A stretch of DNA of 64,000 nucleotides from Haloarcula limicola. GTDB taxonomy: Archaea > Halobacteriota > Halobacteria > Halobacteriales > Haloarculaceae. Positions 6,322 through 16,176 of the stretch are shown piece by piece. How positions within the stretch are numbered: position 1 is the first letter of the stretch; every line of letters starts with the position of its first letter. Made by a program: the position numbers and the translations under genes. The DNA lies in assembly GCF_010119205.1 (NCBI RefSeq), contig NZ_WRXM01000002.1, positions 922,982 to 986,981 of the forward strand. The letters run 5' to 3'. Under the pieces are notes generated by a model. That model was not told the origin of the DNA and did not search any database. It saw only the letters and a program-made list of their open reading frames with translations.

Positions 6322-6489
6322 ATGGAGCCGGACACGGTTGCCCCAGCGGAGGTCGCCGAAGACGCAGAAGTCATGGCTTCCGTCGAGGAAGGTCAGACTG
6401 AAACGCTCGTCATCGCAGATATCTCGCAGGACGACGCCTATATGACACTCCCGCTTTCCGACGCCGCATCGCTCCCGGAGTGGCGGTAA
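6322..6489 (+). CDS. Small acidic conserved-type haloarchaeal protein, 55 aa
   Basis: Starts MEPDTVAPAEVAEDAEVMAS and ends SLPEWR. Composition is strongly acidic, as expected for a real haloarchaeal protein, and a well-placed TATA box precedes the ATG. The central ETLVIADISQDDAYMTLP resembles small uncharacterised haloarchaeal proteins with an LVIADIS core; I recognise the pattern but no function. The frame is open further upstream (to 6004), but that stretch is not protein-like. It stands alone: 412 nt after the CBS gene start (opposite strand) and 308 nt before serA. Confidence 0.7.
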   Translation: MEPDTVAPAEVAEDAEVMASVEEGQTETLVIADISQDDAYMTLPLSDAASLPEWR

Positions 6490-6797: not shown

Positions 6798-8381
6798 ATG
6801 AAGGTACTCGTCACGGACCCCATCGCCGACGCCGGTCTCGACCGGTTACGCGAGGCGGGCCACGAAGTGGAGACAGCCTACGACGTCGAGGGCGACGCGC
6901 TCCTCGACGCGGTGTCGGACGCGAACGCGCTCATCGTTCGCTCGGGCACCGAAGTCACCGACGAAGTGCTCTCGGCGGCTCCCGAGCTGGTCATCGTCGG
7001 CCGGGCGGGGATCGGCGTCGACAACATCGACATCGACGCCGCCACCGACCACGGCGTCATCGTCGCCAATGCCCCCGAGGGCAACGTCCGCGCCGCCGCC
7101 GAACACACCGTCGCGATGGCCTTCGCCACCGCTCGCTCCATCCCGCAAGCTCACGACCGCATGAAGGCCGGCGAGTGGGCGAAAGGCGAGTTCCTCGGGA
7201 CCGAAGTCAACAACAAGACGCTGGGCGTCGTCGGCTTCGGTCGCGTCGGCCAGGAGGTCGCCAAGCGCCTCGGTAACCTGGGAATGGACATCGTCACGTT
7301 CGACCCCTACATCAGCGAGGACCGCGCGAAGCAGTTCGGCGCGGAACTGGTCGACGATCTCGACGACTGCCTCGACGCCGCGGACTTCGTCACCATCCAC
7401 ACGCCGCTGACCCCCGAGACCGAGAACATGATCGGCGAGGAGGAACTCGCTCAACTGGAGGGCGGCTACGTCGTCAACTGCGCCCGCGGCGGCATCATCG
7501 ACGAGCCCGCGCTGGCCGAGGCCGTCGAGGACGGCGTCCTCAAGGGCGCGGCGCTGGACGTCTTCGGCGAGGAGCCGCTCCCCGAGGACAGCCCCCTGCT
7601 GGGCGTCGAGGACGTCATCCTCACGCCGCATCTCGGCGCGTCGACGGAGGCCGCACAGGAGAACGTCGCCACCTCGACTGCCGACCAGGTTATCGCCGCC
7701 TTCGACCACCAGCCAGTGGCGAACGCGCTCAACGCGCCGTCGCTGGACCGGGCGACCTTCGAGCGCGTCGAGCCGTACCTCGAACTGGCCAGCACGGCCG
7801 GTCGCATCGCCGTCCAGCTGTTCGGTAGCCACATGAGCTCCGTCGAAGTGACCTACGCCGGCGACATCGCCGACGAGGACGTCGAGTACGTCACCGCCAG
7901 CGCGCTGGAGGGCGTCTTCGCGCCGTCGGACATCCAGGTCAACGCGGTCAACGCCCCGCAGATCGCCGAACAGCGCGGCATCGACGTCACGGAGTCGAAG
8001 ACGAGCTCCGCCGAGGACTACCAGAGCCTCATCACCGTCACCGTCTCCGACGGCGAGGAGTCGGTGTCGGTCTGTGGGACCCAGTTCGGCGGCGAGGAGT
8101 CCCGCATCGTCCGCATCGACAACCACCGCATCGAGGCCGTCCCGCACGGGCACATGCTCGTCGTCCGCAACAAGGACGAGCCGGGCACCATCGGCTTCAT
8201 CGGGACGGTCCTGGGCGACTCCGACATAAACATCGCGGGGATGTTCAACGGCCGCGAGACCATCGGCGGGGAGGCGCTCTCGGTGTACAACCTCGACTCC
8301 CAGCCCGGCGCGGAGATCCTCGACCGACTGAACGAGGACGACCGCATCATCGGGACGACCTACGTCGCGCTCGACGACTAG
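6798..8381 (+). CDS. serA: D-3-phosphoglycerate dehydrogenase
   Basis: First step of phosphorylated serine synthesis: oxidises 3-phosphoglycerate with NAD. The 527-aa product is the long form: a D-2-hydroxyacid dehydrogenase core with Rossmann motif VVGFGRVGQEVAKRL (about residues 136-150), active-site region NCARGGIIDEPALAEA and catalytic His in PHLGASTEAA; then an intervening domain and a C-terminal ACT domain (LVVRNKDEPGTIGFIGTVL, about 455-473) that in relatives binds serine for feedback control. Start at MKVLVTDPIADAG fits the family exactly. A T5 tract about 30 nt past the stop may act as terminator. Confidence 0.97.
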   Translation: MKVLVTDPIADAGLDRLREAGHEVETAYDVEGDALLDAVSDANALIVRSGTEVTDEVLSAAPELVIVGRAGIGVDNIDIDAATDHGVIVANAPEGNVRAAAEHTVAMAFATARSIPQAHDRMKAGEWAKGEFLGTEVNNKTLGVVGFGRVGQEVAKRLGNLGMDIVTFDPYISEDRAKQFGAELVDDLDDCLDAADFVTIHTPLTPETENMIGEEELAQLEGGYVVNCARGGIIDEPALAEAVEDGVLKGAALDVFGEEPLPEDSPLLGVEDVILTPHLGASTEAAQENVATSTADQVIAAFDHQPVANALNAPSLDRATFERVEPYLELASTAGRIAVQLFGSHMSSVEVTYAGDIADEDVEYVTASALEGVFAPSDIQVNAVNAPQIAEQRGIDVTESKTSSAEDYQSLITVTVSDGEESVSVCGTQFGGEESRIVRIDNHRIEAVPHGHMLVVRNKDEPGTIGFIGTVLGDSDINIAGMFNGRETIGGEALSVYNLDSQPGAEILDRLNEDDRIIGTTYVALDD

Positions 8382-8481: not shown

Positions 8482-10323
8482 ATGGGAGTGGACGACAAAC
8501 AGGTGGTTCGGATCCTGTTCGCGGACGGGAGTGGACGACTCGACGTCTTAGCGGGTCAACTCGCCGAACGCGGGTTCGAGATCGACCACGTGACCGACCC
8601 GGAATCGCTCGCCGAGACCGACACCGACGGGTACGACCTCGTGGTCGTCGTCCACGACGAGACGACGACGCCGAAACGGGATGGCGTCGCCGGCGTCGAG
8701 ACGGCGATCGCGGCCGTCGACTGCCCGGTCGTGCTCTACGCTATCGGCTTTCCGGGAGCCGCGGTCGCCGTCGAGGCCCTCGAGGCGGGGGCCGCCGACG
8801 CCGTGTACGTCCCGCCCGAACGCGGCGAACTGCTGGCGCATCGACTGCGCTGTGCGGCGACCGGCGACGACGGGTTCGACTCGGCGGAGCGACTGCTCGC
8901 GGACTTCTTCGAGCACTTTCCGGAAGACGTCTACGTCAAGGACGACCACGGCCGCTTCGCCGTGGGCAGTCGGCCGACGACACAGCCACAGGGGTACGAC
9001 CGCGACCAGCTAGCGGGGCTCACGGACTACGAACTGCTCCATCCCGACCTCGCCGACGCGCTCTACGAGCAGGAGCGCCGCATCCGCGAACGGGGGGAGC
9101 CACAGGTCGACGTCGTCGAACACTACGTCGAGGACGGACGGGACCGCTGGGTGACGTCGACGAAGGTTCCGAGATACGACGCCGGGGGGAACGTCACCGG
9201 CATCGTCGGCGGCACGCGCGACGTGACGCGGTCGCGCCGTCGCGAGCGCCTCGTGGCGATGCTTCACGAGGGGAGCCGAGACCTGATGCGAGCGGAGACG
9301 CGGGCCGCCGTCTGCCGGGCGACGACGGAACTCGCGGACGACATCGCGGCGCTCCCGTCGGTTCAGGTCGCGCTCTACGACGGCCAGACGCTCCGCCCGA
9401 GTGTGACGACCGACGAGCGGGAGACGGCGTTCGACCGGTACGAACGGTGGTTCTGGCGGAGTTTCGAGACGAGCGACCCGCAGTACGTCACGACCGAGCC
9501 GAACGGTCGGACGGTCCGCACCGACGCGGCCGACCCGTCGGCGATCGACGCCGTCGTCCTGCCGCTCGGCCGACACGGCGCGCTGGGGATGTGGCCGGAC
9601 GACCCCCTCGACGAGTTCACGCTGGAGTTGGCGAACGTGCTCGGCGCGACCGTCGAGGCGTCGCTCGACCGGGCGCAGCGAGAACAGGAACTCAGAGAGC
9701 GCGAGGCGGAGCTGGAGCGCCAGAACGAGCGCCTCGAGGAGTTCGCGACGATGGTCAGTCACGACCTGCGCAACCCACTGCAGATCGCGTTCGGCGCGGC
9801 CGAGATGTTAGACGCCGAAGGCGAGCACGGAGACCGCCTCTACGCCGCGCTCTCTCAGATGAACCGCCTCGTCGACGAGCTGCTGACGCTCGCGCGAGAG
9901 GGCGAGATCGTCGGGGAGCGAACGCCGGTCGAGGTCGCTTCGCTGGCCGAGGCCGCGTGGGGCGCGCTCGATACCGGTGCCGCCACGCTGGAACTGGACG
10001 GCGCCGGGACCGTCCTCGCCGACCGCGACCGCCTCCGCGAGCTGTTCGAGAACCTCTTCTGGGTGTTGCTGCGGCAGGCCGACGGCCGTACGATCCGGGT
10101 CGGCCGCCTCGGTGACGACGGCCTCTACATCGAACAGGCCGACGGCGACGGATCGACCGAGGCCGACCCGTCGGCGACGCGCCCGCTCGACACCGACGAC
10201 TGGACCCAGTACGGCCGCTACATCGTCTCGACGATCGCGGAGGCCTACGGCTGGACCGTGACGAGCGCCGACACCGACGGCCGGTACACTCGCTTCGAGA
10301 TAACGGGGGTGACGGTCCGGTGA
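8482..10323 (+). CDS. PAS sensor histidine kinase homologue with degenerate ATPase domain (pseudokinase)
   Basis: 613 aa. Order: a receiver-like N-terminal domain without a clear phospho-Asp site (1-135), a PAS domain with FPEDVYVKDDHGRF and the closing WVTSTKVPRYD...GIVGGTRDVT (about 145-255), a GAF/bat-like region, a coiled coil (REREAELERQNERLEEF) and an H-box VSHDLRNPLQ with His at about 427. The ATPase domain is damaged: in the N-box, ENLFWVLLRQ has Val at about 528 where Asn binds Mg-ATP; the DxGxG G1 box and GxGxG G2 box are absent (WTQYGRYIVSTIAEAYGW remains). Its stop overlaps the GTG start of an intact paralogue. Likely a signalling partner rather than an active kinase. Confidence 0.9.
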   Translation: MGVDDKQVVRILFADGSGRLDVLAGQLAERGFEIDHVTDPESLAETDTDGYDLVVVVHDETTTPKRDGVAGVETAIAAVDCPVVLYAIGFPGAAVAVEALEAGAADAVYVPPERGELLAHRLRCAATGDDGFDSAERLLADFFEHFPEDVYVKDDHGRFAVGSRPTTQPQGYDRDQLAGLTDYELLHPDLADALYEQERRIRERGEPQVDVVEHYVEDGRDRWVTSTKVPRYDAGGNVTGIVGGTRDVTRSRRRERLVAMLHEGSRDLMRAETRAAVCRATTELADDIAALPSVQVALYDGQTLRPSVTTDERETAFDRYERWFWRSFETSDPQYVTTEPNGRTVRTDAADPSAIDAVVLPLGRHGALGMWPDDPLDEFTLELANVLGATVEASLDRAQREQELREREAELERQNERLEEFATMVSHDLRNPLQIAFGAAEMLDAEGEHGDRLYAALSQMNRLVDELLTLAREGEIVGERTPVEVASLAEAAWGALDTGAATLELDGAGTVLADRDRLRELFENLFWVLLRQADGRTIRVGRLGDDGLYIEQADGDGSTEADPSATRPLDTDDWTQYGRYIVSTIAEAYGWTVTSADTDGRYTRFEITGVTVR

Positions 10324-12200
10324 CCGCCGATAGCGACGGTCGAACGACGACGGCCACCGCGCCCATAGGCGTCTCCTGTGTCGACCCCGACGGGCGGCTC
10401 CGACCGGTCGTTGCCGCGCTCCGAGCGGTCGACGACGTCGCCGTCTCCGTCGTCGGCGACGTAGCTGCCGTCGAGGGAAACTCGGACTGCTGCGTGCTGT
10501 TACACGCGCCCGAGACCGAGACGCACGACGCCGTCGACGGGCTGGCGCAACTCGACGAGTTCGTCGAGGCGCACCCGGGCGTTCCGGTCGCCGTCTACGG
10601 CGTCGACATCGAATCGGCGATGATGACGACCCGGGAGTTCGCCCGTCGAGTCGTCGACCACGGCGGCGACGCCGCGATGACGATGGCCGGCGAGCGAACG
10701 GAACTCATCGTTCGGCGGATCAAGCAGGTCGCCGGTTTCGAGGAGCACTTCCAGTCGGACGCGGCGCTGTTGGACTCGCTCTTGGAGTCCTTTCCTCACC
10801 AACTGTTCGTCAAGGACGACGTGGGCCGCTTCGTCGACACCAGCGCCGTCACGGCGCGGGAGTACGACTTCGACCGCGAGGCGCTGATGGGGCTCACGGA
10901 CTACGAGCTCATGCCGATGAGCCTCGCCGAGGACCTCTACGAGGAGGAACAGCGGATCATGGCGACCGAGGAGCCAATGCTCAACAAGGTCGAACACTAC
11001 GTCGACGCCGAGGGCCACAGCCGGTGGGTCAACACGACGAAAGCCCCCCGTTACGATCGGGCCGGAGCGGTGACCGGCATCGTCGGCGGCACGCGCGATA
11101 TCACCGAGGAGAAGCGACAGGAGCACGTCGTCCGGGCGGTCCACGAGGCCAGCCGCGACCTCGTCCGGGCGGGCGACCGAACCGAGATCGGCGACGTGAC
11201 CGCCTCGATCGCCGAGGACATCCCGGCGCTCCCGCGCGTGCAACTCGTCCTCGCGGACAGGACGACCGGGGAGCTGCAGCCGGTCGAGTCCGACGGCGAG
11301 CCGTCCATCTACGCCCGGTACGCCGAGTGGTGCGAACGCGCCCACGAGCGGGCCGAGGCGCTGTTCGTCCTCGAAGACGGGAGCGACGCGGTCACCGACT
11401 GGGACGCCATCGAGCGACCGGCGGCGGCGCTCGTCCCGCTCGGCTCGCACGGCGTCTTCGGCGTCACGACGGGCGAGCGGACGATCGACGAGTTCACGTA
11501 CGAACTCGCGAACATCTTCGCCGCGAACGTCGAGGCGGCGCTCGACCGCGCCGAGCGCGAACGCGAACTCGAACACCAGAACGAGCGCTTAGAGGAGTTC
11601 ACGAGCATCGTCAGTCACGACCTCCGCAACCCGCTCAGCGTCGCCAGTTCCTCCATCGAACTCGCGAAGGATGACCCGAAGCCGGCCCATCTGGAACGAG
11701 CCGACCGCGCGCTCGACAGGATGGAACAGCTGACCGAGGAACTGCTGACGCTCGCGAAGAAGGGGCAGACGGTCGGCGAGACCGATCGCGTTCAGCTGCG
11801 AGAGGCCGTCCTCGACACTCGCGAGAGCGTCTCCGACCAGCGCGCTAATATAGTCACCGAGGAACTGGCGACCATCGAGGCCGATCGCTCCCGACTGGTA
11901 GAGCTACTGGAGAACCTGTTTCGGAATGCCGTCGAACACGGACCGGCAGACGAGACCGATGCGGTGACGGTCACCGTCGGGATGCTCGCCGACGGCTTCT
12001 ACGTCGAGGACGACGGCGTCGGGGTCCCGGAGAGCGAGCGCGAGGCGGTGTTCGAGATGGGCTACACGGGCAGCGATGGGGGGACGGGGTACGGTCTCTA
12101 CATCGTCGAGACCATCGCGGACGCCCACGGGTGGTCCGTCCGCGCCACGGAGAGCGAATCGGGCGGCGCGCGTTTCGAGTTCACCGGCGTCATCCGGTGA
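10320..12200 (+). CDS. PAS sensor histidine kinase (intact paralogue)
   Basis: 626 aa, GTG start overlapping the upstream stop (GTGA). Same architecture as its neighbour: receiver-like N-terminus, PAS (FPHQLFVKDDVGRF, closing WVNTTKAPRYD...GIVGGTRDIT), GAF-like region, coiled coil, H-box VSHDLRNPLS with His at about 433. Here the catalytic motifs are complete: N-box ENLFRNAVEH with Asn at about 536, G1 DDGVGVPE, G2 GGTGYGLYIVETIADAHGW. No membrane segments, so a cytosolic sensor. No response regulator is adjacent. The two genes are a tandem duplication in which only this copy kept ATP-binding residues. Confidence 0.93.
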   Translation: MTADSDGRTTTATAPIGVSCVDPDGRLRPVVAALRAVDDVAVSVVGDVAAVEGNSDCCVLLHAPETETHDAVDGLAQLDEFVEAHPGVPVAVYGVDIESAMMTTREFARRVVDHGGDAAMTMAGERTELIVRRIKQVAGFEEHFQSDAALLDSLLESFPHQLFVKDDVGRFVDTSAVTAREYDFDREALMGLTDYELMPMSLAEDLYEEEQRIMATEEPMLNKVEHYVDAEGHSRWVNTTKAPRYDRAGAVTGIVGGTRDITEEKRQEHVVRAVHEASRDLVRAGDRTEIGDVTASIAEDIPALPRVQLVLADRTTGELQPVESDGEPSIYARYAEWCERAHERAEALFVLEDGSDAVTDWDAIERPAAALVPLGSHGVFGVTTGERTIDEFTYELANIFAANVEAALDRAERERELEHQNERLEEFTSIVSHDLRNPLSVASSSIELAKDDPKPAHLERADRALDRMEQLTEELLTLAKKGQTVGETDRVQLREAVLDTRESVSDQRANIVTEELATIEADRSRLVELLENLFRNAVEHGPADETDAVTVTVGMLADGFYVEDDGVGVPESEREAVFEMGYTGSDGGTGYGLYIVETIADAHGWSVRATESESGGARFEFTGVIR

Positions 12201-12428
12201 TCAGCGCTCGGCCAGCAACCGCTCGTACCGGTCGACGACCTCCTGCCGACGCTGCCGCTCGCGCTGTAACTCCAGCTCTAAGGCCGCGATCTGACAGCGC
12301 AGGAGCAACAGGTGACTCCGCGAGGCGACGGTCGACGGCCGATGCGGCGTGACGCGTCCGCTCTCGATGCCGTTCTCGGTGGTCGGCGGCGTCGGGGGCG
12401 ATGCCACTCCGGTGAGTCGCGTGGGCAT
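12201..12428 (-). CDS. Small coiled-coil protein, 75 aa, unknown function
   Basis: Starts MPTRLTGVASPPTPPTTENG; a Pro/Thr-rich N-terminus is followed by a heptad-like helix (ALELELQRERQRRQEVVDRY). An ATG twelve codons upstream is possible, but the later ATG directly follows a GC-poor stretch that could hold the promoter. It converges on the kinase gene with no spacing and lies downstream of polC on the same strand. The helical, charged C-terminus and placement support a real gene; function unknown. Confidence 0.6.
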   Translation of the reverse strand: MPTRLTGVASPPTPPTTENGIESGRVTPHRPSTVASRSHLLLLRCQIAALELELQRERQRRQEVVDRYERLLAER

Positions 12429-12513
12429 GTGTGGTAATCGTCCCCACCCGGCAAAAGCACCCATCGGACGGCCGTCGCACGTCCGTCTTGCGCCCTGAGT
12501 GCTCAGCCGACCC

Positions 12514-15500
12514 CTACATGAAGTCGGCGATGCCGGACTGTTTGTTGTGGTCGTTCTCGAAGACGGACTCGATGGACCGCTCCAAAATCTTCAGGCGCTG
12601 TTTCGTGTAATCGCGAGCGCCGAACTCGTCGGCGACGCGGATGGCCGTGTCGATGTACTTGTTGACCGACCCCTCGTGGACAGTGAGGTTCACGCGGCCG
12701 CCGCACTCCCGGCAGTCGCCCGTGAGCGGCATCCGTCGATAGGACTCTCCGCAGTCCAGACAGCGGACCTCCTGTCTGGAGAACGCCCGGAGGTTGCCGA
12801 TGAGGTCCGGCAGGAAGTGGTACTCGATGATGCGCTCGGCCACGTCCGATTCGACGACGGCCCGCAGTTTCCGCGAGATTGATAGTTGGGCGTCCATCTT
12901 GTCCTCCATCGACCCCAGCGTCTTGTACGCCGAGAGGTCCGGTCCCGCGGCGATGTTCGTCGTGTCGTGGGTGTGCCGGAAGTCGGTGTACTCGCGGTCG
13001 GTGCCGAGCGTCTCCTCGGCGATCTTCATCACGTCCTCGACCTCGGCGGGGTCGGCGAGTTCGCGGGTGGCCTCGTAGAACTCGCGGGGATACGTGTCCA
13101 TGATGTCCATGTTGTGCGCCTCGTCGTCGATCTCGCTCGGGTCGATGCGGGAGGACATCACGAGCGGCGCGTCCATCTGCCCGCCGCGCTTGTCGGGGAG
13201 GTAGGACTTGCTGAAGTTCAGCAGGCCGTCCATCAGGAGCATCACGCAGTCCTCGTCGCCGTCGCAATTCCGACGTTTCGCGGCGTGAAAGTACGGATGC
13301 GCGTAGCCGACGGCGGCCGAGGTGAACCCGACGACTCGGCCGACCGTCGCGGCGCTGGTGTGGGGAGCCATCCCGAAGACGAGTTCGCCGACCAGTTCCT
13401 CGCGCTCCTCGAACTCGTAGTACGGCCCGAGGCCGTAGTACTGCTCCAAGAGGTCGTCGACGAAGTCGGCGGTCTTGAGCATGTGTTCGGCCGCGCCGTC
13501 AGAGAGGACGATGTCCTGCACCTTCAGTTCGACCAGCTGGTCGGCGCGGGTGAGCGGGTCGCCGTGGATGTCCGTCTCGTAGCCGAGGTGACGCAGGCGG
13601 TCCGGTTCCACGTCGAGTTCGGCGGGCCGAACGGCCGTCACCGGGAGGTCGGTCATGTCGTAGCGGACGGTGCCGTCCTTGAACGCCGAGACGTCGTGCT
13701 TCGCCCGCAGGACGCCCTTCTCCATCGGCTCGGGCAGTTTCTCGGCGGAGGTGAGTCCCTTGACCGCCTTCAGTTTCTCGAAGGCCGTCTCGCGCTCGCC
13801 GACGGTTTCGAGGGCGTCCCGGTAGATGGACTGTAAGTCCAGTTCCTTGTACTGGGTCGGCGAAGCGAGCGTCTCACAGCGGCCGCACTCGGCGCGGCCG
13901 GACTCGTCGGGTTCTACCTCCATCTCGCAGTCGGGACAGACGTACACCGTCTCGGCGATCTGGTCGCACTCCGGGCAGCGGGCCTCGTGGGTCTCGGTGC
14001 CGCAGGCGGGACAGCGGCGGTGGGCCACCTCCACGTCGACGCGGCCCGGCGTCTCGCTCATCGAGTCGGCGTGCTTGGTCGCGTCGGCGACGCTGCGCTG
14101 GGAGCCGCCGGCCTCGCCGATGGGAAAGAGGGTGTGGACCGCCGGCGAGAGGTCCCGGCGCTCGGATTTCTCCGGACGGCCCATCCGGTTGCCGATGCGG
14201 GTCGGTGCCCGCTCCCGGACTTCGAAGGGCGAGACCTCGTTGACCGCGAGGACGGCGTTCAGTCCGTCGCCGTCGTTCTCCTCGGGCGAGTAGCCGATGG
14301 CGTCGGTCGCCTCGCCCTCGCCGTAGGTCTTCGCGCGCTCGGAGATATCCGAGCGCGTCCAGTCGCGTTCGAGCGAGCGCGAGAAGCCCAGCGTGCGCAC
14401 CAGCGGCAGCCAGTCGGAGACGACGAGTCGGTCCCCGTCTTGCGTGTGCTCGACCAGCAGGTGTTCGAGCGCCGTCTGGACCGGGCCGCTCCGCGAGAGG
14501 ACGAGGTCGCCGGTGGTGGCTCGCCGGTCGCCGTCGTCTCGAACTACAGCACCGTCTGTCGCGGCGACTTCCGCCCCCTCGATCGCGTCGGCGAGCGCCG
14601 CCATCTGTTCGACGCTCACGTCGTGCCAGAGGTAGGTGTACTTCGGGTGCAGCGGCGCGTCGTACTCGGTGGCCCACTCCAGGGCCTCGTCGGCGCTGGG
14701 GTCGGCCAAGTCGATGTGCGGGGAGTCCCGCATCGCGGCGACGTCCGCGCCGGCGGCCTCGAAGTCCTGCTCCCACCACTCGACGGTGTAGGAGGCCGGC
14801 GCGAGCGGGTGGTTGTTCTCGACGAACTCGCCGAAGTTGACGAGGTACTCGCCGAGGTCGAGGATCTTCTCGACGCCGTTGCGGACTTCGAGAGCTTCCT
14901 CGGCGTCGTCGATGCGGCGCACGTCGCCGTTGGCCAGTCGCACCGTCGGCCCCTCGATGGTGTCGACGGGGACGACCCCGGCGGCTTTCCCGGGCCGCTC
15001 GGTCTTTATCTGGGTCCCGGTCGCGAGGAAGTCGTCGACCAGGTGCATCGTCGCCGGATGGACGCCGGCGGTGGCGAAGCCGTGGTTGCGCGCCCGGCCG
15101 TAGCGCAGGCGGAAGCCGCCCGATTTCGAGGGATGCGAGAACACCGGCCGACCGGCGATGAGGTCCCGGAGGTACTTCTTGGCGGGATCGACCCGCGGCG
15201 GGCCGGGCCGCTCCTCGCTCTCGTCGGCTACCTCGTCGTCGCCGTCGGCCCCTCCGCTCTCGCCGTCCGCATCGCCCGCGGCGTCGCCGCTCGCGTCGTC
15301 CGAGGCCGCCCCGTCGTCGGCCTCGCTCTCGCTCTCTCCGATGGTGCCGTCGATGAGGTCCTGCAGCCACGGCCAGTCGACCTCGTCGAGATTGCGGGTG
15401 TAGCGCTGGATCTTCGGGGCTTTCAGGGCGATCCCCTCCGCGAGGACGAGACACATCCCGCCGCGGGCGGAGTTCGAGTCCACCCGTTCGAGGTCCCGAT

Positions 15501-16176
15501 ACCCCGAGACCTCCTCGTCGCCGGTGGCCTCCCCGTCGAGCATGATGGGCATGTGCTCGGCGATGAACTTCGTCTCCTTCTCCTTCGGGGAGTACTGGAG
15601 GCCGGTGTCCTTGTCGTAGAGGTCTATCTCCTCGGCGTAGCGGCCGATCTCCTCCTGGCGGGCCTCGTACTGTTCGATGCCCAGCAGCGCGCGGGCGTAG
15701 TCGGCGACGAGGACGGAGAGGGCCTGTGCGGTCCCGCCCGCCGAGCGGATCGGGCCGGCGTAGTAGACGTTGATGAACTCCGTCCCGTCGTCGTTCTCGA
15801 GCAACTCGACGCGGTCGATGCCCTCGATGGGCGCGGCGACCACGCCCTCGGTCAGCAGGGCGACGGCGGTTCGAACGGCGCCCTCTATCTTCCCCTCGCG
15901 GGTGTCGTAGTCACCGACGCTGCCGTCGACGAAGTCGTCGACGAGTTCCAGCGCGGCCTCCTCGCGGGACATCTCGCCTTCGAGTTCGCGGACGCGCTCT
16001 GCGACGCCGTCGATGCCGAGGATGTTCTCGACGCGGTCGGCCATGTCGCGCGCGGTCGGGATCTCGACTTCCGGCTTCGGGTCGCCGCCGCGCTCGCGGG
16101 CGCGCTCGGCGACGGCCATCGCCGCGTCGAGTTCCGTCTCCAGCGTCTCGAAGTACCGCTCGTCGGCCTCGCGCAT
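12514..16176 (-). CDS. polC: DNA polymerase D large subunit (DP2)
   Basis: Catalytic subunit of the archaeal replicative polymerase PolD. The 1220-aa product starts MREADERYFETLETELD. The catalytic centre is visible as NCDGDEDCVMLLMDG, with the two Asp residues known to be essential in DP2. A zinc-ribbon region has repeated CPxC/CxxC pairs (CPACGTETHEARCPEC, CPDCEMEVEP, CGRCE) and another zinc site lies near the C-terminus (CLDCG...CRECGG). An acidic Ala/Asp/Gly-rich insert around residues 280-330 is probably a halophilic linker. No intein interrupts the conserved blocks, unlike in several other haloarchaea. The gene follows the PPC-domain gene after 1 nt. Confidence 0.97.
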   Translation of the reverse strand: MREADERYFETLETELDAAMAVAERARERGGDPKPEVEIPTARDMADRVENILGIDGVAERVRELEGEMSREEAALELVDDFVDGSVGDYDTREGKIEGAVRTAVALLTEGVVAAPIEGIDRVELLENDDGTEFINVYYAGPIRSAGGTAQALSVLVADYARALLGIEQYEARQEEIGRYAEEIDLYDKDTGLQYSPKEKETKFIAEHMPIMLDGEATGDEEVSGYRDLERVDSNSARGGMCLVLAEGIALKAPKIQRYTRNLDEVDWPWLQDLIDGTIGESESEADDGAASDDASGDAAGDADGESGGADGDDEVADESEERPGPPRVDPAKKYLRDLIAGRPVFSHPSKSGGFRLRYGRARNHGFATAGVHPATMHLVDDFLATGTQIKTERPGKAAGVVPVDTIEGPTVRLANGDVRRIDDAEEALEVRNGVEKILDLGEYLVNFGEFVENNHPLAPASYTVEWWEQDFEAAGADVAAMRDSPHIDLADPSADEALEWATEYDAPLHPKYTYLWHDVSVEQMAALADAIEGAEVAATDGAVVRDDGDRRATTGDLVLSRSGPVQTALEHLLVEHTQDGDRLVVSDWLPLVRTLGFSRSLERDWTRSDISERAKTYGEGEATDAIGYSPEENDGDGLNAVLAVNEVSPFEVRERAPTRIGNRMGRPEKSERRDLSPAVHTLFPIGEAGGSQRSVADATKHADSMSETPGRVDVEVAHRRCPACGTETHEARCPECDQIAETVYVCPDCEMEVEPDESGRAECGRCETLASPTQYKELDLQSIYRDALETVGERETAFEKLKAVKGLTSAEKLPEPMEKGVLRAKHDVSAFKDGTVRYDMTDLPVTAVRPAELDVEPDRLRHLGYETDIHGDPLTRADQLVELKVQDIVLSDGAAEHMLKTADFVDDLLEQYYGLGPYYEFEEREELVGELVFGMAPHTSAATVGRVVGFTSAAVGYAHPYFHAAKRRNCDGDEDCVMLLMDGLLNFSKSYLPDKRGGQMDAPLVMSSRIDPSEIDDEAHNMDIMDTYPREFYEATRELADPAEVEDVMKIAEETLGTDREYTDFRHTHDTTNIAAGPDLSAYKTLGSMEDKMDAQLSISRKLRAVVESDVAERIIEYHFLPDLIGNLRAFSRQEVRCLDCGESYRRMPLTGDCRECGGRVNLTVHEGSVNKYIDTAIRVADEFGARDYTKQRLKILERSIESVFENDHNKQSGIADFM

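Follow-up and report, generated by a model that had tools for sequence, protein, structure and literature searches.

Why should a haloarchaeon keep, directly in front of a complete sensor histidine kinase (HK), a second protein of the same build that appears unable to use ATP? The question is raised by two genes of Haloarcula limicola, which lie in a stretch of 64,000 nucleotides of contig NZ_WRXM01000002.1 (positions 922,982 to 986,981 of the forward strand; referred to here as the window). Gene A (8482–10323, plus strand, 613 amino acids) and gene B (10320–12200, plus strand, 626 amino acids, GTG start) encode proteins that are 41% identical from end to end and have the same domain order, and the start of B overlaps the stop of A by 4 bases in the sequence GTGA (10320–10323). 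A profile search of the 3.9 Mb genome gave 35 matches to HisKA (E ≤ 1e-3) and 44 matches to HATPase_c, and for only one of the 35 HisKA domains, that of A, no HATPase_c match lay in the 600 bases that follow. Because A has lost the parts that handle ATP and yet has long kept its phosphoacceptor His, our comparisons suggest that A is no broken gene and now serves as a partner without enzyme activity, or as a brake.

Domain architecture and ATP-binding motifs of the pair

Both proteins begin with a region that resembles a receiver domain lacking the phosphorylatable Asp (in A at 8482–8871, boundary approximate). This assignment is based on sequence and on a low-confidence model of B, which has a beta-alpha receiver fold at its N-terminus and gave Foldseek matches to solved receivers, e.g., 4qpj_C with a target template modelling (TM) score of 0.73; the TM-scores of the whole-chain matches to the B model were low, and only the receiver-domain matches were used. 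Response_reg matches in relatives were weak and below the cut-off. A PAS domain follows, which scores above the Pfam cut-off of PAS_4 in both A (8908–9240) and B, and then a GAF-like domain (9250–9678 in A), which was assigned by its position and predicted secondary structure, as A gave no Pfam match there and one relative reached 12.3 bits, below the cut-off. The HisKA domain, which forms the dimerization and histidine phosphotransfer (DHp) helices, is recognized in A (9733–9900, 44.1 bits) as well as in B (11589–11765, 50.5 bits; cut-off 26.9). The H-box residues H427, D428, and N431 are kept in A, with the codon of the phosphoacceptor position His427 at 9760–9762, and the corresponding residue in B is His433 (11616–11618). 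A sequence-only reading of the window had already noted the shared domain order and the retention of the PAS domain, the dimer helix, and the His in A, and Pfam and alignment bear this out; the receiver-like and GAF-like domains of both proteins come in addition.

The two proteins part at the catalytic and ATP-binding (CA) domain. B has an intact HATPase_c domain (11883–12185, 66.3 bits), and the CA domain of A (9922–10320), as delimited by Pfam and alignment, is degenerate and scores 13.4 bits, which is under the cut-off of 26.4. In the alignment, N536 of the N-box of B is replaced by V528 in A (10063–10065), the G1 Asp D564 falls on Q552/A553 of A in the remaining sequence EQADGDG (10132–10152), and the G2 sequence GTGYG (residues 588–592 of B) reads WTQYG in A (residues 574–578; 10201–10215), the glycines 588 and 590 being replaced by W574 and Q576. 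The sequence-only reading had regarded the N-box Asn and the complete G1 and G2 motifs as lost. This is right for the N-box Asn, the G1 Asp, and most of G2, but it goes too far for the G1 glycines: in the window copy of A, only the Asp is gone and both glycines are present (ADGDG), whereas the glycines are gone in most orthologs.

By its HisKA and HATPase_c domains and its N, G1, and G2 boxes, B is a predicted orthodox HK, and A is not. The term pseudo-histidine kinase is used in passages of PMC12632262 for proteins that lack at least one HK function, where it is also stated that 0.9% of the bacterial HisKA domains are without the His, and A is a predicted member of this class by its homology and its missing ATP residues. 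Going by the description in PMC5847659, A would likewise be counted among the 'HisKA, no HATPase' proteins, with a degenerate remnant that becomes visible in the alignment to B.

Conservation, selection and loss of A

Our searches covered 32 genomes of the genus, 146 of the family, and 392 of the order (for the order, the best 3 candidates per genome were scored). A full-length A followed by B was found in 6 of the 32 genus genomes, that of the window included. The orthologs in the five relatives are 84, 70, 66, 67, and 59% identical to the window copy of A, and 80, 68, 69, 66, and 61% identical to that of B, which means that A and B diverge at about equal pace. None of the six A proteins has the N-box Asn, the Asp of G1, or either of the first two glycines of G2, and the motif VSHDLRNPL is kept in all six, the phosphoacceptor site being His throughout and not Tyr as in DivL. 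Sub-threshold HATPase_c matches of 13.4 and 15.1 bits were obtained with two of the A proteins, and none with the other four. In B, the N, G1, and G2 boxes as well as VSHDLRNPL are intact in 7/7 proteins, including a B without a full-length A in G015, and HATPase_c scored 56.5–71.6 bits in the six B proteins scanned (that of G010 was left out). Since five relatives carry the tandem pair with the motifs of A lost in each, the motif loss of A is old. The sequence-only reading had proposed to look for the same pattern in the pairs of relatives: lost ATPase motifs and a kept His are found in all of them, and a functional upstream ortholog, as would be expected after recent decay, does not occur in the genus.

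Relative to the nearest relative (G002), the ratio of nonsynonymous to synonymous substitution rates (dN/dS) is 0.23 for A (0.18 for its CA region) and 0.21 for B (0.24 for its CA region). For the CA regions compared with the other four relatives, with synonymous sites partly saturated, dN/dS is 0.31–0.46 in A and 0.28–0.38 in B. The mean pairwise identity of the CA region is 59.6% in A and 67.0% in B, and that of the last 40 residues is 72.6% in A and 75.5% in B. Among the whole domains of A, the DHp is the best conserved, with a mean pairwise identity of 74.2%, and the block YIVSTIAEAYGW that follows G2 is invariant in the six A orthologs. The CA region of A is thus under constraint that is relaxed mid-domain, rather than in decay, and A as a whole, with its lost ATP motifs and its retained His, is best described as a predicted pseudokinase of long standing under purifying selection. 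This supports the sequence-only reading in its view of A as an apparent pseudokinase with a retained His.

The locus is not present throughout the genus. As judged from the loci of relatives, the conserved upstream neighbor of A is a phosphoglycerate dehydrogenase-like gene (6798–8381, plus strand), which from its sequence we take to be serA. For 30 serA loci of the genus, the 1.5 kb that follow were read: six contain A and one (G015) contains B with a remnant of A, while at the other 23 serA is directly followed by an 87-aa open reading frame (ORF) or by the gene of DNA polymerase DP2; at five of these 23, a distant kinase match lies further on, on the other strand. In G015, only a stretch near the A start and the last 54 residues were detected by tblastn in front of the intact B. 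A full-length A without B was not found in the genus, and B without A was found this once.

The deletion of most of A in G015 next to an intact B, together with the absence of the entire pair at those 23 loci, could be taken to mean that A is a decaying gene, in which the ATPase motifs were lost first and the remainder is to follow. However, the frame of A has stayed open in six genomes, with identities as low as 59%, its ATPase tail is nearly as conserved as that of B, and its dN/dS is close to that of B even in the CA region, which already contradicts decay. We thus regard this explanation as very improbable. Recent decay of A is ruled out by the conservation and dN/dS, and a sequencing or frameshift artefact is ruled out as the losses are common to six genomes.

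Some further observations concern the surroundings of the pair. Upstream of serA, a 55-aa ORF (6322–6489, plus strand) is kept in most of the genus relatives read, with 60–98% identity. In the window, B and the DP2 gene are separated by the 87-aa ORF (12201–12464, minus strand), whose C-terminal end is conserved and which in most relatives without the two kinase genes comes directly after serA. The DP2 gene (12514–16176, minus strand) is uninterrupted in the window, and in G018, G012, and G015 (L041, L042, and L045) an insertion of 0.5–1.5 kb, which resembles an intein of variable size, splits it after residue ~970.

Related tandems and repeated loss of ATPase motifs

The serA-linked position is occupied by a single intact copy in genus g2 (G034, G036, and G037), and by tandem kinases with motifs intact where readable in another family (f6: G195, G166, G202, and G209). 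A tandem of two presumably live kinases hence exists elsewhere, in proteins that may not be orthologs of A. Genus g2 also has copies with degenerate ATPase boxes at other positions: those of G033 and G034 form tandems, and the stretches read of G035 and G036 contain single ones. The word degenerate stands here for our own judgement of the motifs, as two of the six g2 copies keep the N-box Asn and one exceeds the HATPase_c cut-off with 30.2 bits; of the other five, three scored 14.0, 19.2, and 25.0 bits and two gave no match. All 12 degenerate proteins, i.e., the six A and the six g2 copies, retain the His as well as the Asn at position +4 from it.

In two g2 genomes, both members of the tandem are degenerate in their ATPase boxes (L088 8254–12012 and L089 5906–9735), and therefore the pair itself holds no live partner. 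In G033 (L088 2820–4601), a transposon gene that we take to be TnpB-like, judging by a motif in its sequence, adjoins a cluster in which one family member is intact and two are degenerate.

A tree was built without the ATPase columns, and one row (G195_L080_10002) was dropped due to a run of undetermined residues. Two changes to the degenerate state are required on this tree. That A and the degenerate g2 copies lost their motifs in one event was rejected, as a clade uniting them was incompatible with the approximately unbiased (AU) test (p 8.9e-5) and was recovered in 0/200 bootstrap trees, which puts the number of conversions at two or more. A clade of A with the whole g2 b/c/d group was compatible with the AU test (p 0.2), and A was placed outside the other kinases with moderate support (93/87). 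The possibility that A is a recent duplicate of B was also rejected (A+B clade, AU p 0.0068), and A and B are old paralogs.

Possible function of A and comparison with known systems

What could a protein do that has the sensors and the phosphoacceptor helices of a kinase without its ATP motifs? The sequence-only reading had proposed a heterodimer with coupled, near-equal synthesis of both partners or, as its second option, a dead copy that regulates purely as a sensor, a role that A may have. In a heterodimer of the split or asymmetric kinase type, A and B would pair via their DHp helices, the ATPase domain of B would phosphorylate the His of A, and the sensors of A would modulate B. The similarity of A and B in sequence and domain order would permit this, the His is kept in every A, and split kinases are known in principle from CheA3/CheA4, as described in parts of PMC3591291. 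Coupled synthesis is a feasible option for the five of six pairs in which the stop and start overlap by 4 bases, but in the sixth (G018) the genes are separated by a 19-base gap. The geometry of the signalling helix, however, differs between the partners. The linker that joins the GAF-like domain to the His measures 36 residues in 6/6 A and 29 in 7/7 B, a difference of exactly one heptad that corresponds to the sequence QREQELR in A (9676–9696), which is absent from B, and the DHp hairpin, counted from the His onward, has 48 residues in all A and 50 in all B. A parallel full-length A/B coiled coil would be one heptad out of step; pairing of the DHp alone would still be possible, and the geometry thus argues against the plainest form of the heterodimer. 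In the serA-linked pairs of f6, both members have the 36/48 geometry of A, and there both are live. An additional third copy, present in G166 and G195, has 29/48, and the lengths of B (29/50) equal those of its g2 counterparts. As A and B are also not fresh duplicates, we consider the heterodimer possible but rather unlikely, and do not favor it.

The reading that we prefer, with a probability of roughly 0.4, is that A is a homodimeric, ATP-independent DHp protein that serves as a phosphatase or phosphate acceptor on the pathway of B. B alone of the two would use ATP and supply the phosphoryl group. A would be co-translated with B, and with its own PAS and GAF-like input its DHp helices would act on one or more response regulators common to both proteins, and would most likely adjust the level of regulator phosphorylation by removing or taking up phosphate without ATP. 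Because its linker and hairpin lengths differ from those of B, A probably works as a homodimer, and its degenerate ATPase domain may be kept as a structural or regulatory lid and not as an enzyme.

Several points speak against this reading. The putative phosphatase activity is deduced from a short motif that kinases also have, and the overlap of 4 bases and the near-equal rates of A and B would fit a heterodimer equally well. No response regulator gene was recognized beside the pair among the flanking ORFs of the window, which were read by eye from 5 to 16 kb. A can be lost while B is kept, and is dispensable in G015. The AlphaFold2 models, which were made with four-row alignments, are poor, with a mean predicted local distance difference test score (pLDDT) of 53.8 for A and 59.0 for B and values <50 in the CA region of A, too low to support a fold of this region.

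Alternatively, A could be a reader in the manner of DivL, whose transmitter fold binds a phosphorylated response regulator and informs B or another kinase. DivL is a characterized precedent according to the parts of PMC4211667 that describe it, and the conserved DHp and the invariant block after G2 would fit a retained binding surface. However, the His is replaced by Tyr in DivL, which suits a pure reader, whereas every degenerate copy found here keeps it, and the regulator that would be read was not recognized in the flanks either. We therefore judge a reader function to be distinctly unlikely.

The preferred reading of A as a homodimeric phosphatase or acceptor can be extended to the related copies, although we hold this wider version to be doubtful. 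A haloarchaeal tandem-kinase family may have repeatedly turned one or both of its members into ATP-free pseudokinases that keep the H-box His and Asn, and the helix and hairpin lengths may hold the dead and the live protein apart as separate homodimers on a common target, resulting in a paralog-derived pair of a kinase and a dedicated phosphatase. A live/dead pair, a natural deletion of A in G015, live/live relatives, and a second origin together form a small comparative system for the role of a histidine pseudokinase, and haloarchaea such as Haloarcula and Haloferax are genetically workable.

DivL is not known to have a tandem twin, and the genes of RetS and GacS are not known to form such a tandem either. 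Like A, the DivL of Caulobacter is HK-shaped, has no kinase activity, and is kept by selection, the inactivity of A being predicted from sequence; as described in the relevant parts of PMC4211667, DivL has Tyr at the His site and weakly binds an ATP analogue, whereas A keeps the His and its ATP motifs are gone. In the RetS–GacS system, one sensor-kinase-like protein restrains another, as A may do with B, by means of heterodimer formation, phosphate siphoning, and dephosphorylation, but RetS as well as GacS is a hybrid kinase of bacteria in the description consulted (PMC12189002), whereas A has no C-terminal receiver and the A/B heterodimer is putative. CheA3/CheA4 of Rhodobacter sphaeroides resemble the pair in that the ATP-using part resides in one protein and the phosphoaccepting His in the other. 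There, going by parts of PMC3591291, the ATP-using partner lacks a phosphorylatable domain and the two need each other, whereas B, with VSHDLRNPL kept, is complete alone.

Within the archaea, HisKA proteins without HATPase are already known from the census in PMC5847659, as far as its sections on them describe. They are termed 'nonenzymatic HK-like' or 'HisKA, no HATPase' proteins (in P2CS 'possible incomplete histidine kinase') and occur mainly in Archaeoglobi and Methanomicrobia; acceptor or phosphatase roles were raised for them, tandem duplication was noted among archaeal two-component proteins, and of a related class with a receiver domain, none had been studied experimentally according to that census. 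Like A, these proteins have PAS/GAF sensors and a HisKA domain with a conserved His and no recognizable HATPase, but they are described there as lacking the domain, whereas A is haloarchaeal, has a full-length degenerate ATPase domain, and has a live paralog as its conserved tandem partner. In a limited search of open-licence PMC text, with subscription papers outside its scope, we found no report of a conserved dead/live tandem in haloarchaea or of its recurrence. Similar in build are the haloarchaeal REC-PAS-GAF-HisKA-HATPase kinases (REC-HisK), which have the architecture of B and, in the account given in PMC5847659, have often lost the receiver Asp. The ancestor of A presumably had this REC-HisK architecture as well, and A differs from these kinases in the loss of its ATPase motifs.

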